Below are positions 13,498-23,874 of a stretch of DNA of 23,894 nucleotides, in pieces. Location: IMG/VR virus record IMGVR_UViG_3300042465_000182, positions 1 to 23,894 of that record. The stretch is one strand, 5' to 3'. This DNA comes from a virus. Under the pieces are notes generated by a model that saw only the letters and a program-made list of their open reading frames with translations, was not told the origin of the DNA and did no database searches. The position numbers and the translations under genes were made by a program. Numbering within the stretch: position 1 is the first letter of the stretch; the number at the start of each line of letters is the position of its first letter.

Positions 13498-13860
13498 TTA
13501 TGCTAAGTATTTGAGTTTGTAGATGGTGCGAAGATAAATCTCAACAATGTTGTCAATAAGCTGTTGCAATGACGAATCTGTTTTGTCTGCAACCTTATAC
13601 CGAGCACCTTCGATTTCAGCCAACGAGCTTTCTAAAAACTCAATGATGTTGGAAGTCTTGGTTGCCGAATGCAAAGTGATGGGGCCAATCAAACCATGAC
13701 GGCCTTGGTAGGCTTCAGCAAAATCATCTGCCGCGCCAACAATGCGGTCATAGAAAATTTTAAGTGCTTCGTGCTTGCTGAAACTACGAGTATTTAAGTG
13801 AACGCTGTGCGTCACGTCCCGTGCTAGAAACAGTAAGCCTAAAAAATCAGCGGGTTTCAT
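13498..13860 (-). CDS. DUF5856-like helical phage protein
   Basis: The 120-residue protein is predicted almost entirely helical, with amphipathic helices suggesting a four-helix bundle somewhat like Dps/ferritin. Key patterns are 'MKPADFLGLLFLARDVTHSVHLNTRS' split at the N-terminus, 'FAEAYQGRHGLIG' (about 48-60), 'FLESSLAEIEG' and the ending YLRTIYKLKYLA. I associate these with the phage family DUF5856, whose function is unknown. Conserved-looking His (positions about 17, 21, 55) and Glu residues could bind metal, but this is speculation. The ATG overlaps the portal stop as ATGA, so it is translationally coupled to the portal. Confidence 0.7.
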   Translation of the reverse strand: MKPADFLGLLFLARDVTHSVHLNTRSFSKHEALKIFYDRIVGAADDFAEAYQGRHGLIGPITLHSATKTSNIIEFLESSLAEIEGARYKVADKTDSSLQQLIDNIVEIYLRTIYKLKYLA

Positions 13861-16278: not shown

Positions 16279-16533
16279 TCAACACTTCCATCTTTTAAGG
16301 GCTGCTTTGGCACGCTCGCCGTCTTTGGCGTTGGCCGCTACAGCGCCCATTCTTGCACAAAATGAAGCCTTGCGGCCTTCGTCTGCCTTGGTCTTCGGGT
16401 TTGGTGCTGGCGGTTTAAGGTTGGAGCCTGTCTCTCGGTTGTACTTTTCGCGCCCTTTGGCCGTCAAACCAGCACCTTTGGAAACGGGTAGTTTCTCACC
16501 TCGGCCAACGCTAAGAGATACGTTTTTTTTCAT
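16279..16533 (-). CDS. Small basic phage protein, DUF6321-like
   Basis: The 84-residue protein begins MKKNVSLSVGRGEK and contains 'KGAGLTAKGREKYNRETGSN', a Pro/Lys stretch, 'GRKASFCARMGAV' and a basic C-terminus ending RWKC. The central pattern matches my memory of the phage family DUF6321; function unknown. The ATG at 16533 overlaps the terL stop as ATGA, so I prefer it to the in-frame ATG at 16545. Two cysteines (in SFCAR and at the last residue) are notable. The charge suggests contact with DNA or RNA during packaging, but this is inference. Confidence 0.7.
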   Translation of the reverse strand: MKKNVSLSVGRGEKLPVSKGAGLTAKGREKYNRETGSNLKPPAPNPKTKADEGRKASFCARMGAVAANAKDGERAKAALKRWKC

Positions 16534-18053
16534 GCGCCCATCCAACCAGTTACCGCAGTGCCCTGCGCGTTAAAACGTGTGTGCGCTGGTTCTTTGTATT
16601 CTCTGTGCGCCACAGGAAAAGCAAACGTCACTGCGAGCGCATCAGCTGCATCTGGTGAAGCTAAACCTCTTGCTCGCATTTCTTTTTTGCCTTCCAAAAA
16701 TATCGTTCCTGAAGAATCTGGTTTCTTCGTTGGACCCGTAAAATCAGCTTTCAGCTGCCGATCTGTGGGAATACTAGCAGATTTTAACCAGTTACGCATG
16801 TCATTCCACATTTCTGCTCGCTTATTTCCAAATGCTTGCGAGTGCTTGGCCTTGTTCCCAAAATTCACACCTCGGACCTTGTACCTTTGCTCGGTCAGCC
16901 GGTCAAGTATTCCATAACCCAAACCACCTTCATCAATGACGGTTAAGGTTGGTTTGTATTCTTCAATGGCCTCAATCACCCTGCCCACAATTTCCATCGT
17001 ATCTTCGCCCTTGTAACGCTTGATGGCCACCAAGTCGCGGCCCTGGCGTACCACAATCACCGTCGAATCTGCACCACCGCGGGCGGGGTCAACTCCCAAA
17101 ATGATCGGTGCCGTCAAATCCTTGTACCTTGGCCTTTGCATGGCGTCATCCACAATCATTGGGCTGATAAATTGATCTTCACCGGCTGACGGGAACTCAC
17201 CATACACCTCGACCTTGGCTTGGGCTGAGTCCTCGCCATATTCAGCAATGATCTGCTCATAAACCGACTTATCGGTGTCTTCCACCGTCCTGGCATCCAC
17301 AATTTTGGACGTCCAAAAGTTGCGTTTGGCGTGAAAACACTCAAAAAAGTAGCCTTCATTGCGCCGTGGGTTGGAAAATGCAAACCAGTACCTGTCCGGC
17401 GTGTTTTCTGTAAAGAATCCAGCTCCAACTTCCCAAATCGGGTTGGGGATACCGCTAGATTCGTCAAATATCAGCATCATGCCGTCTTGGTTGTGCACAC
17501 CAGCGTAAGAATCGGGGTTCTCTGCACTCCAAAGCTTGCCCTCGCAGGCCCAGTAGCGGGTGCCTTTACGCAAATCGCGCTCGACAAGTTCAGTTAACCA
17601 CTGCGCGGGAACTAGCTTGGTGGCCGAGATCTCCCACCAGTGCGAGTTAATGAGCATGGCTGCCCATTTGGTCAACTCTGCCCATGTCACTGAGCGCAGC
17701 TGGTTCTCGCTGTTGGCGCTGACAACAACCGAGCCACCAATGCGGGTGGTAAGCATCCACAAAATCAACCAGGACACCAAAGCAGATTTGCCAATGCCTC
17801 GACCAGATGACACGGCCATGCGGATGGTGTCATAGTCAATCAAACCCTTTTGTTTTTTGATGTGCGCGGTAATGTCTCGCAACACTTCCCTCTGCCATTT
17901 GCGTGGGCCGGTGAACTTCTCCAGCGGCGTGTTCTTCTGGCCCCAGGGAAAGGCAAACAGCACAAAAGCTTCTGGATCATCAGCAATGGCCGGTGACCAA
18001 AGCTCCACCATCAGCTTTTGTTCTTCTTCAGACTTGTATATCGTGGTTTGCAT
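16530..18053 (-). CDS. terL: Terminase large subunit (packaging ATPase and nuclease)
   Basis: The 507-residue protein cuts the DNA concatemer and drives it through the portal. The ATPase domain shows a Walker A-like SSGRGIGKS (82-90), Walker B MMLIFDE (192-198) and the coupling motif FSNPRR (226-231). The RNase H-like nuclease domain shows Asp322 (GVDPARGG), Asp374 (VIDEGG) and Asp468/Asp471 (SPDAADAL), the usual three acidic positions. All key residues are present, so it should be active. It starts three bases after the 636-residue gene and is coupled by ATGA to the next gene. It is separated from terS by about 2.4 kb, which is unusual. Confidence 0.95.
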   Translation of the reverse strand: MQTTIYKSEEEQKLMVELWSPAIADDPEAFVLFAFPWGQKNTPLEKFTGPRKWQREVLRDITAHIKKQKGLIDYDTIRMAVSSGRGIGKSALVSWLILWMLTTRIGGSVVVSANSENQLRSVTWAELTKWAAMLINSHWWEISATKLVPAQWLTELVERDLRKGTRYWACEGKLWSAENPDSYAGVHNQDGMMLIFDESSGIPNPIWEVGAGFFTENTPDRYWFAFSNPRRNEGYFFECFHAKRNFWTSKIVDARTVEDTDKSVYEQIIAEYGEDSAQAKVEVYGEFPSAGEDQFISPMIVDDAMQRPRYKDLTAPIILGVDPARGGADSTVIVVRQGRDLVAIKRYKGEDTMEIVGRVIEAIEEYKPTLTVIDEGGLGYGILDRLTEQRYKVRGVNFGNKAKHSQAFGNKRAEMWNDMRNWLKSASIPTDRQLKADFTGPTKKPDSSGTIFLEGKKEMRARGLASPDAADALAVTFAFPVAHREYKEPAHTRFNAQGTAVTGWMGA

Positions 18054-19986: not shown

Positions 19987-20087
19987 GGTTGAATATACCA
20001 AATAAAAGCTGGCGCAGGGAGTTCCGAATTAAAACAGAAGGAGCTGTGTATGGCTCGGGTGCTATGCGCCAGCAAGGTCGAATATAC
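19987..20087. repeat. Paired direct and inverted repeats upstream of the 636-residue gene
   Basis: GGTTGAATATAC (19987-19998) recurs as GGTCGAATATAC (20076-20087). Inside, GCTGGCGCA (20008-20016) is the exact reverse complement of TGCGCCAGC (20065-20073). On the minus strand the inner arm is followed by TTTTATTT. The block may be an operator, a leader structure or an eroded element; no ORF explains it. Confidence 0.5.
19992..20000 (-). promoter_or_regulatory. Candidate extended -10 promoter for the late/packaging operon
   Basis: On the minus strand TGGTATATT fits an extended -10 (TGnTATAAT-like). It would start RNA near 19985, 18 bases before the ATG at 19967. No good -35 is visible 17 bases upstream. 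It lies just downstream of a terminator-like element, a sensible place for a fresh promoter. Confidence 0.35.
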
Positions 20088-20090
20088 ATT

Positions 20091-20120
20091 AAAAATAAAA
20101 AAAATTGTGCGCGGGGGCAC
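20091..20120 (-). terminator. Possible rho-independent terminator at the end of the early operon
   Basis: On the minus strand a GC-rich segment with a short stem (GTGC, 6-base loop, GCAC; alternative CGGG/CCCG pairing) is followed by AA and a run of eight T, then ATTTTT. The stem is weak but the U-run is strong. It would stop transcripts coming from terS before the next operon. Confidence 0.4.
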
Positions 20121-20235
20121 CCGTTCTCGCGGTACTTTGCGCCGGACCCTCCCCCCCCCCGTCGGGCCAGCTGGCGGGCAGGCAGGGGCACCGGCGCCGG
20201 CCACGCGGCGGCGGGCCATAAGCCAGCGCAGGCGG
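20107..20235. other. GC-rich non-coding block with C10 run, candidate packaging (cos/pac) region
   Basis: The block is far richer in G+C than its neighbours and contains a run of ten C at 20151-20160, GGCGCCGGCC and GCGGCGGCGGG. It lies between terS and the packaging operon. Open frames through it have biased, Arg/Pro/Ala-rich translations and no ribosome binding site, so I read it as non-coding. Terminase recognition sites often lie close to terS; that is the only basis for the cos/pac suggestion. Confidence 0.3.
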
Positions 20236-20239
20236 GAAG

Positions 20240-20343
20240 TTATCCACAAGCTGAGAGCGTTATCAGGCCAAGGTTAGACACATTGGCCTGTGGATAAGTG
20301 CAATCTGTTTATTTGCTAAGCATATTCCTGTGAGTTATCCACA
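20240..20343. other. Candidate replication origin with three DnaA boxes
   Basis: The perfect 9-mer TTATCCACA occurs at 20240-20248 (+), 20289-20297 (-, as TGTGGATAA) and 20335-20343 (+). Between the first two, CAGGCCAA (20264-20271) and TTGGCCTG (20283-20290) form an 8-bp inverted repeat that runs into box 2. An AT-rich flank with a repeated TTATGTAAG-like motif extends to about 20410 and could be the unwinding element. Three exact copies in 104 bases are very unlikely by chance. The host initiator DnaA would bind here; the phage primase-helicase could then be loaded. Confidence 0.7.
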
Positions 20344-20442
20344 ATCGACTTAACATAATGGACATCGTGTAAAATGGATTATGTAAGCGTTATGTAAGTA
20401 TGTATATGAATCAACAGGTTAGCGTTGAAAGATATGCACATG
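20344..20442. other. AT-rich non-coding flank of the putative origin
   Basis: About 100 bases without a supported gene between DnaA box 3 and the terS stop codon. It is AT-rich, with two near-identical TTATGTAAG units at about 20379-20398, and reads as a possible DNA-unwinding element. No convincing promoter was seen. Confidence 0.4.
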
Positions 20443-20919
20443 CTACTTTGGCTCTACGTCGGTAATGTCGTCCACCTTGGCCATACCAATTTGCACCCTG
20501 GCTTGCGCCTGCTCCAATGCTTGAATAACGCTGATCCGGTTATCGCTGACGCTGACGTCGAGCCGGTCACCATACGTGCGTGGCTTAAGCTTGCTGGCCA
20601 CCCACTTACGCGCATCAACCTGCAGGCGCTTCTGGTTCACCCAGGCGCTGACTGCGACGCCTTCTAAGTGGTCTGGGATGGGTTGATCGGCCAGCTCGAC
20701 TATTTCCTCTGCCAAACGGTCTGCTCGCTGCTCTACGGCCTTTTGATAGGCTTCTTTGAGCTTATCGTTGGCCTGCAGCATTCGCCAGGCGTGAACGTAG
20801 CTTGGCATACCAGGCTCGCGCAAGGCGCCAGACAAGCTAGCGCCGCTGCTGATCTTGTCCAAGATGCCAGGCCAAATGTCTTCGGTGTATTCGATCGGTC
20901 TGCCGCCCAAATTCTTCAT
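20443..20919 (-). CDS. terS: Terminase small subunit
   Basis: The 158-residue protein would bind the packaging site and pass DNA to the large subunit. The N-terminal 'GGRPIEYTEDIWPGILDKIS' (4-23) is a DNA-binding-domain opening common in small terminases, followed by 'SLSGALREPGMPSYVHAWRML' split over about 28-48 (a helix-turn-helix-like part). A long helix 'KLKEAYQKAVEQRADRLAEEI' follows. 'RLQVDARKWVASKLKPRTYGDR' split around about 98-119 ends the conserved part and is a pattern I know from this family. The ribosome binding site is weak (AAGGGC). It lies downstream of rusA and upstream of the putative origin. Confidence 0.85.
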   Translation of the reverse strand: MKNLGGRPIEYTEDIWPGILDKISSGASLSGALREPGMPSYVHAWRMLQANDKLKEAYQKAVEQRADRLAEEIVELADQPIPDHLEGVAVSAWVNQKRLQVDARKWVASKLKPRTYGDRLDVSVSDNRISVIQALEQAQARVQIGMAKVDDITDVEPK

Positions 20920-21607: not shown

Positions 21608-21658
21608 CCTTGTTCATCCGATTCGGATGGTTTCGGATGCTTTCGGATGGTCTGGATG
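21532..21658. repeat. TTCGGATG iteron-like array
   Basis: Eight exact TTCGGATG copies start at 21532, 21566, 21576, 21585, 21597, 21622, 21632 and 21642. Variants TCCGGATG (21556) and TCTGGATG (21651) extend the series. Most spacings are 9-12 bases, about one helical turn. Two inverted CATCCG copies (21485-21490, 21492-21497) lie across the palindrome. The array covers the last codons of the primase-helicase gene and the gap behind it. Such phased arrays are typical of initiator-binding iterons, but they may also be expanded coding repeats. Confidence 0.75.
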
Positions 21659-23659
21659 ACTCCGATACCCCCCATCGACCTCTACCACCATGCCCTTGGC
21701 AATCATACTTTTGACTACTTCCCAAAATCTATTGTTCTTCACCCCATGCTCTTTGGCGCTGTCTCTCCACTCATCGTACTGTGCTGGATGGCTCAAATTA
21801 TCTTGCTCGCGCTTGAGCTCAATCAGCACCAGGCACTCCATGACCAGCTTTTGGTTTGGTGAGAGATAGGTCTTTTTCTGGACCTGGCTGACTAGGCCGC
21901 TGATGTCCACGCCAACAAGGTACGCACCCTTCACTGGCAAATTGTGCTTGTCCAAGATGGGTAGATCGACTTGAGTGATCTGAAAGTTCTTGGCCGCTGG
22001 CATCTCAGCATCTTTCATCTTTCTAGACTCAAACTGGATGGTCTTGGTGCCTGAGTCCAACGCCACTTTGTACTCAGCATCCAACGCACCCCGTAGAGCT
22101 GTAGACCCTCTGCTGCGCTCTTTGTCCATGGCGCCACTATGGTGGACCACCAAGACGCAACACTTCCATGGTTGGCGCAGGTAGGTGTCTAGGTGCTGGA
22201 TGAAGGCATTCATGTCTTGGGTGCTGTTCTCATCGCCGCCCATGTTTCTGGCCACTGTATCGATGATGATCATGCTAGGTATGCAGCCGGCATCTGCGCT
22301 TAACTGTTTGACTGACTCAGCCACAATGGCCGCCTCAGTGCTGTCGTACAGCTGTGCAGCTCGGTGGCTTTTGTATAACGGTGCCCCGACCAAACTTGTG
22401 GCATTGCCCAGCTCCCATGCTTTGAACCGCCTGGCCAAGCCGTTATGGCCTTCACCGGCAATATAAAACACCGCCCCTTGCTGTACTTGGTGCCCGTGCC
22501 ATGGCTTGCCAGTGGCAATGCAGCAGGCTATGTCAATCGACACAAAGCTTTTGCCACCGCCTGGGTCACCAAACACCTGCGCCAGTGAGTCGCTCTCAAT
22601 GTAATCATCCACCACCCAATGTATTTGGGTCAGCTGCAAGTTGTCTGCTCTGGTGAACTCAAAGGCCAGCTTGTCCTTCACTGGCCCTGCCACGCGCTCA
22701 ATTTGCTCTTTTACCGCGTCCAATCCCTGCAGCACGTGCAGGTCGTTGAAGTCTGTTGGTTTGTTGGGCAAGTCAGACTCCGAAAAATTAGGGTAAACAA
22801 CCTCGCCAAATACTAGTGCAGCTGCAGCCTTGCCCTTGGCCACCCCTGGGTTGCCCTCGGTGAACTGGTCATTGTCTGCGCCAATCACAATGCGCGAGCC
22901 AGGAAACATCTCTTTGGCAGCCTTGGCCACCTTGGCCAAGTTGCCACAGTCAAACGCCACCAACGTGGTGTAACCCGTCGCCTCATGGATACTGGCGCAA
23001 GTGGCAAACCCCTCACCAACAAAGATCACCTTGCGGTTACCGCGCAGCTCATAAAAACCACCTTCGATCTTGCCACCTTTGAGAAACCGTTTGTTGCCAT
23101 CAGCATCAATGGTTTGGTAGCTCAGTATCTCTCCCGCCTGGTCAATCACCGGCACCACCAACCTACCTGCACGGTCAATCTTGATCCCATGGGGCTCAAT
23201 ACGCTTACGCACAAGGTAGGGATGGTCTGCGCTGGCGTCCGTGTAGGTCGATACCTCTTCCTCTGCCCGATCCGCTGCCTGGGCCTGTGACGCCAACCGT
23301 TCAGCTTCTCGCTTGGCCTTGAACTCAGCCACCCACTTGTCATGCTCGAGCCTCTCGCTAAAGCTCATGCCCCGCCCAGTGTCTGCCACCCACTTGGCCT
23401 CAAATGTTGGCTCCTTCCAGCAGCCACATACACCCACAGGGATCTTCCCACTCAGGTGCAATATGTACCAACCGTCCAGCGCCCCCTTCTTGCTCGACAC
23501 ATGAGGCACCCTGTGAATCTCACCATCAGCAATCAATTCTTTGATGGTTAAGCCACTGGCTTCACAGTGCCTGCGAAAGCTCTCAACGGGGTCTACCAAG
23601 TCAGTTGACGCCGTGGCAGCTGCAAAGCCGTTGGGAAATATGCTCGATAGACTGCTCAT
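21614..23659 (-). CDS. TOPRIM primase - RepA-type helicase fusion
   Basis: The 681-residue replication protein has an N-terminal region (about 20-130) with no clear zinc finger, then a TOPRIM domain: 'VIFVGEGFATC' (about 211-221, catalytic Glu), 'IVIGADND' (257-264, Asp pair) and 'DFND' (303-306). A RecA-fold helicase follows: Walker A GDPGGGKS (364-371), 'AVFYIAGEG', Walker B MIIIDT (463-468), CCVLVVHHSG (500-509) and 'RSRGSTALRG' (515-524). A winged-helix-like C-terminal part and an HP/SE-rich tail end it. The helicase matches RSF1010 RepA-like and phage AAA_25 proteins. The ATG at 23659 overlaps the regulator stop (ATGA) with GGAGG 7 bases upstream, so I reject the longer start at 23710. 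Confidence 0.88.
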   Translation of the reverse strand: MSSLSSIFPNGFAAATASTDLVDPVESFRRHCEASGLTIKELIADGEIHRVPHVSSKKGALDGWYILHLSGKIPVGVCGCWKEPTFEAKWVADTGRGMSFSERLEHDKWVAEFKAKREAERLASQAQAADRAEEEVSTYTDASADHPYLVRKRIEPHGIKIDRAGRLVVPVIDQAGEILSYQTIDADGNKRFLKGGKIEGGFYELRGNRKVIFVGEGFATCASIHEATGYTTLVAFDCGNLAKVAKAAKEMFPGSRIVIGADNDQFTEGNPGVAKGKAAAALVFGEVVYPNFSESDLPNKPTDFNDLHVLQGLDAVKEQIERVAGPVKDKLAFEFTRADNLQLTQIHWVVDDYIESDSLAQVFGDPGGGKSFVSIDIACCIATGKPWHGHQVQQGAVFYIAGEGHNGLARRFKAWELGNATSLVGAPLYKSHRAAQLYDSTEAAIVAESVKQLSADAGCIPSMIIIDTVARNMGGDENSTQDMNAFIQHLDTYLRQPWKCCVLVVHHSGAMDKERSRGSTALRGALDAEYKVALDSGTKTIQFESRKMKDAEMPAAKNFQITQVDLPILDKHNLPVKGAYLVGVDISGLVSQVQKKTYLSPNQKLVMECLVLIELKREQDNLSHPAQYDEWRDSAKEHGVKNNRFWEVVKSMIAKGMVVEVDGGYRSHPDHPKASETIRIG

Positions 23660-23874
23660 GCCTGTGCCTCCAACAGTTCTGGCCATATGGCCTTCCAGCT
23701 GCCCTGGCACACCATCTTCCGGCTTACTCTTCCCGCAGTCTCCTGCTCTATCCTAACCGCCTCCCAAGCACTCATTTCACGCCTGCCGGTCAAGCATTGG
23801 TACAGGTACTGCTCATTCATGCCAACTTTTTCTGCCAGTTGTCGGCGCTCATCTGGTGTTATTTGTGTGTTCAT
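23656..23874 (-). CDS. YdaS/Cro-type helix-turn-helix regulator
   Basis: The 72-residue protein has a helix-turn-helix at about 9-45 ('RRQLAEKVGMNEQYLYQCLTG', 'REMSAWEAVRIEQETAGRV') followed by 'SWKAIWPEL' (about 59-67). The 'IEQET.GRVSR...W..IWPEL' ending is typical of YdaS-type Cro-like regulators found in prophage early operons. It probably binds operator DNA upstream of its own operon. The ATG at 23874 has no good ribosome binding site within the visible 20 upstream bases. It is the first visible gene of the replication operon and is coupled to the primase-helicase by ATGA. Confidence 0.8.
   Translation of the reverse strand: MNTQITPDERRQLAEKVGMNEQYLYQCLTGRREMSAWEAVRIEQETAGRVSRKMVCQGSWKAIWPELLEAQA

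Follow-up and report, generated by a model that had tools for sequence, protein, structure and literature searches.

A DnaA-box cluster adjoining a dif-like Xer site beside terS in a P22-like podovirus and related phages: a possible plasmid-like replicon core

The stretch of DNA analysed here (the window, 23,894 bases in length) was identified as that of a P22-like podovirus, in which genes for portal, coat, scaffold, head closure and DNA-ejection proteins as well as terL and terS were assigned by means of PHROGs (Table 1). A sequence-only reading of the window had placed three DnaA boxes between terS and the packaging genes and proposed them as a probable phage origin. The boxes were indeed located there, in non-coding DNA on the 3' side of terS, between the terS stop and the start of the ORF preceding terL; in L027 and other relatives, terL directly follows the module of boxes and Xer site without such an intervening ORF. 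The primase-helicase that the phage was said to encode was likewise found, with matches to both PF13481 and PF13362. Elsewhere in the window, a 120-aa protein encoded downstream of the portal gene (13498-13860, minus strand) is kept in relatives and matches PHROG 858 (starvation-inducible transcriptional regulator) and DUF5856.

Table 1. Features of the terS-terL region and the replication gene of the window
Feature	Position	Strand	Basis or remark
terL, large terminase subunit	16530-18053	minus	PHROG 2, E 3.3e-45
Long ORF between module and terL	18057 to about 19966	minus	without Pfam or PHROG match
GC-rich flank, 83% GC, C run, then A/T tract	20141-20239		composition
DnaA box 1, TTATCCACA	20240-20248	plus	exact match; majority frequency 1.00 in 19 distinct close-clade sequences
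DnaA box 2, TTATCCACA	20289-20297	minus	exact match; majority frequency 0.90 in close clade
DnaA box 3, TTATCCACA, 4 nt from XerD arm	20335-20343	plus	exact match; majority frequency 0.97 in close clade
dif-like Xer site: XerC arm ATTTTACACGA, centre TGTCCA, XerD arm TTATGTTAAGT	20348-20375	minus	arms-only host dif profile
AT-rich flank, 34% GC, TTATGTAAG direct repeat	20376-20442		composition, repeat search
terS, small terminase subunit	20443-20919	minus	PHROG 1482, E 1.5e-33
TOPRIM-AAA_25 primase-helicase	21614-23710	minus	PF13481 E 4.4e-36; PF13362 E 8.8e-10

As the earlier reading had stated, the three exact copies of TTATCCACA (two on the plus strand and one on the minus strand) all lie within 20240-20343, and they are the only copies in the window. 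The number expected by chance was 0.14 per whole window, and three copies occurred in 0/100 shuffles; when one mismatch was permitted, just two further sites appeared in the whole window, both outside this interval. A fourth box position beside the terS stop has decayed in the window and is intact in relatives such as L005. The inverted repeat reported between the boxes was present between boxes 1 and 2 (CAGGCCAAGGT/ACATTGGCCTG, 20264-20290), and is retained in the closest relatives, not in the next clade. Regarding the AT-rich flank, the description applied to the terS side of the cluster, not to the opposite side, which is strongly GC-rich. The sequence of the AT-rich flank varies between clades, and it is a possible candidate for the unwinding region. 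The GC-rich flank probably belongs to the 5' region of the gene that follows. Ahead of this gene, a G-run/GC-rich stretch leading into a AATTTTTTATTTTTT tract (20085-20239) is conserved, with a counterpart at this position in most of the terS loci (L004-L083); since it also occurs in relatives lacking both the boxes and the Xer site, it represents a separate element. A search of the region against Rfam gave no match.

Adjoining box 3 on its terS side, inside the AT-rich flank, we found a 28-mer resembling a chromosomal dif site, which was absent from the sequence-only reading. Scored with an arms-only profile built from 31 host sites, it reached 33.8 bits (host sites, 26-38), compared with 1.7 for the next non-overlapping position in the window, and by simple arithmetic about 3e-6 matches as good would be expected in the window. 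In the relatives' loci, the 420 bp after terS contained TTATGTTAA 55 times, against 3 occurrences in the other 841 kb, and each of 22 records scoring at least 21 bits had one high-scoring Xer site, with the second best at 12 bits or less. At the level of sequence, the DnaA-box and dif-like motifs themselves are strongly supported.

The dif site of Rhodoferax ferrireducens reads ACTTGATACGA TGTATA TTATGTTAAGT (Carnoy and Roten, PMC2731167), and a scan of 201 genomes from the family of a Rhodoferax MAG gave host-type sites such as ACTTTATACGA TGTATA TTATGTTAAGT; as TGTATA was contained in the scan pattern, the scan alone is no proof of an invariant host centre. In two phage sites (L071 and L074) both arms were identical to those of host dif (ACTTTATACGA/TTATGTTAAGT) and the centre was TGACCA, and variant XerD arms (TTATGTAAAGT) were found in some phages and also in some hosts. 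Judging from the dif arms together with co-binning in MAGs, the host is probably a Burkholderiales bacterium of Comamonadaceae type.

The boxes recurred at the same locus in relatives. For 80 loci with related TerS, in which the 420 bp downstream was taken as the region after terS, the 33 kb after terS contained 114 perfect boxes and the other 817 kb contained 7 (3.43 versus 0.0086 per kb, about 400-fold), and at least one perfect box followed terS in 64/80 loci. Within the clade of the window (19 distinct sequences), conservation of the linkers was 0.73 and 0.76, lower than that of any of the boxes (Table 1). The DnaA consensus TTATNCACA has its free position at position 5, and variation among the boxes falls mainly at this DnaA-tolerated position; box 2 reads TTGTCCACA or TTATGCACA in some relatives. 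In the dnaA neighbourhoods of ten host-family genomes, TTATCCACA accounted for 14/14 of the TTATNCACA sites, which were few per genome.

The spacing between boxes and Xer site was also regular. The first box lay 10 nt past the XerD arm in the same orientation in 113/152 distinct contexts, and the second at exactly +41 in 86/152; the first of these positions was mostly occupied by TTATCCACA, and at the second TTATGCACA or TTATCCACA predominated. Part of the 152 contexts came from a pattern scan (XerD arm, 5 to 30 nt, box) in which the spacing was free and the second box optional; where the context came from another search and its XerD arm was intact, a TTATNCACA box was found at +10 in 49/56. 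The arrangement differs by clade: 10 nt and a direct box, 4 nt and an inverted box (the form of the window's clade), or about 55 nt in L027-like phages. Relative to terS, the module can be on either side and in either orientation. In six loci (L050, L053, L058, L059, L065 and L079), the Xer-plus-boxes module was inverted relative to terS and flanked on both sides by direct repeats, e.g. GTAAGTA(A/C)GC(A/G)CTCACTAAC.

Phages of three TerL clades carry the module next to terS. Contigs from the pattern scan that bear it beside terS include two whose TerL is 31-32% identical to that of the window (L209 and L214) and one whose TerL is barely related (L225: 21%, E 0.025), and the TerS proteins of all three are as diverged as their TerL. 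A common flank, GAATACCGAAGCA(C/T)TCA, was observed directly upstream of the XerC arm in L209, L191, L231, L264 and L214; its occurrence in phages with strongly differing TerS suggests that the module has been exchanged as a cassette. We also considered TTATCCACA as the binding site of TerS (pac), which is disfavoured since this 9-mer persists next to TerS proteins that are strongly diverged or unrelated. When the 48-nt module consensus was compared with annotated phages and plasmids by blastn, only partial matches at chance level were obtained, and the close relatives among annotated phages, DSL-LC05 (TerL 72%) and MW202483 (TerL 67%), had no dif-like site of comparable score in the parts examined.

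Presence of the module was associated with a type of replication gene. An AAA_25 primase-helicase was encoded in 23/26 records with the module versus 0/8 without it (Fisher p 9e-6, shared descent ignored), the exceptions being G001, G010 and G013, and in whole records its domain lay 1.8-2.6 kb from the module, except in one case (3.9 kb). Four records have boxes with degenerate Xer sites (G006, G009, G228 and G245), and one (G005) was left out of the test because its contig breaks just after terS; again with shared descent ignored, p became 0.005 when the former were counted as lacking the module and 6e-5 when the latter was. Conversely, a family-A DNA polymerase was encoded in 1/26 records with the module versus 4/8 without, and TerL relatives of the window at about 82-83% identity that have this polymerase lacked the module. 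The linkage to AAA_25 and the absence from these close TerL relatives indicate that the module is tied more closely to the replication genes than to the terminase. ERF recombination genes, considered as a possible substitute for the Xer site, were found in 3/40 records, one of them module-bearing, giving no clean trade-off.

The proposal of an origin thus stood in part: it agrees with the conserved boxes, the variation at a tolerated position and the linkage to the primase-helicase, whereas cumulative GC skew, proposed as a check, revealed no consistent switch at the module in 7 complete circular relatives, although skew is a weak origin test in these phages, where it seems to follow the coding strand. 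The adjacent dif-like site at fixed spacing makes a plasmid-like origin-plus-resolution cassette more likely than a plain origin. With confidence a little above even, we therefore lean towards the module being a plasmid-like replicon core, in which a host-DnaA-assisted origin would be combined with a site for circularisation or resolution by host XerCD. Host DnaA would bind the three boxes and help open the adjacent DNA, the TOPRIM-AAA_25 primase-helicase of the phage would be loaded at the opened DNA, and a host polymerase would copy the genome. Since no tyrosine recombinase (PF00589, Phage_integrase) was found in 35 phage records (0/35; controls, 14/14 positive), host enzymes would be needed for recombination: host XerC and XerD may bind the dif-like site and recombine two phage copies, thereby circularising the terminally redundant DNA of the virion or resolving multimeric circles, and the altered central hexamer would discourage recombination with host dif. 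Circularisation or multimer resolution as the purpose is suggested by analogy with P1 loxP and plasmid sites such as cer. A stronger version appears to us unlikely: a horizontally shared cassette in which DnaA, bound in fixed phase beside the XerD arm, would initiate replication and at the same time permit Xer recombination only between phage sites. If DnaA and XerCD did act as one machine, genome circularisation, the initiation of replication and the packaging region at terS would be coupled without a phage recombinase.

Several features of the module would also fit other roles. The boxes could be accessory sites of the Xer reaction, at which DnaA, in fixed phase next to the XerD arm, would build a synaptic complex limiting recombination to two phage sites, much as ArgR/PepA do at ColE1 cer, while replication starts elsewhere. 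The fixed distances of the first and second boxes from the XerD arm in most contexts (10 nt and +41) would be explained in this way, as would the joint gain and loss of boxes and Xer site and the missing origin signal in GC skew; however, an origin agrees with the module being linked to the primase-helicase and not to the type of terminase, the spacing varies by clade, and DnaA as an accessory protein of Xer recombination was not found in the part of the open-access literature available to us, so that we regard this role as rather improbable. Slightly less probable again is that the boxes serve to replicate an excised form, the 28-mer being an attP through which XerCD integrates the phage at host dif, as in integrative mobile elements exploiting Xer (IMEX) of the VGJphi type. 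The arms match host dif, many phage centres share the TG on the XerC side with the host TGTATA, and the phages have no integrase of their own (0/35). Against it, several centres do not start with TG, TGTATA itself was found in 0/152 phage contexts, the combination of XerD arm and box occurred in 0/401 host-family genomes, and the TerL relatives near that of the window in the genome collection were on short MAG contigs only, none in a chromosome; the last two results make common integration unlikely.

The boxes might instead titrate host DnaA or place the late operon under DnaA control, the Xer site being an independent neighbour, and this we consider very improbable. A late gene does follow downstream of the boxes, and the region yielded one promoter-like match; yet the promoter/terminator scan remained at chance level (1 promoter-like match versus 0.9 expected), the module precedes terS in L225, L240, L247 and L260, and neither the fixed Xer spacing nor the linkage to the primase-helicase would be explained. 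If the combined origin and resolution site is the correct reading, a widespread group of uncultured freshwater tailed phages would start replication and circularise via host DnaA and XerCD from one compact non-coding cassette, and tailed phages lacking their own recombinase would join those that exploit Xer. The altered central hexamer would then hint at how a phage escapes recombination with host dif, the dif arms would serve as a sequence tag predicting hosts, and a testable question is raised about a role of DnaA in Xer recombination.

In the portion of the open-access literature accessible to us, such a combination of DnaA boxes and a dif-like site in tailed phages had no earlier description, although a prior one is possible. 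Compared with chromosomal dif of the Comamonadaceae type (R. ferrireducens, PMC2731167), the phage site has the same 28-bp organisation (11+6+11), the XerD arm TTATGTTAAGT and a host-type XerC arm; the chromosomal centre is TGTATA and that of the phages TGNCCA and others, and chromosomal dif lies at the chromosome terminus, whereas the phage site lies beside DnaA boxes. IMEX phages and proviruses (CTXphi, VGJphi, TLCphi, microvirus- and PM2-like), as far as the accessible sources describe them, likewise have a dif-like site, use host XerCD and encode no phage integrase; those reported in this open-access literature are filamentous or non-tailed phages that use dif for integration, whereas the present phages are tailed and no integrated copy was found in the genomes searched. 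In phage P1, loxP is close to pac and the DnaA boxes belong to oriR; its Cre and RepA are phage-encoded, and oriR and loxP-pac are separate loci. Like P1, the present phages combine DnaA boxes with a recombination site close to the packaging region; they differ in that host XerCD would serve instead of Cre and that the boxes adjoin the recombination site. The plasmid sites cer and psi also consist of an Xer core with protein-binding accessory DNA on one side (cer-type resolution sites are reviewed in PMC5357621), but there the accessory DNA, recognised by ArgR/PepA or ArcA/PepA, is on the XerC side, whereas the DnaA boxes of the phages are on the XerD side. Finally, oriC and DnaA-dependent plasmid origins share with the module a cluster of consensus boxes, an AT-rich flank and linked replication genes; unlike oriC, to which chromosomal dif lies opposite, the phage cluster is placed beside terS of a tailed phage, together with its dif-like site.
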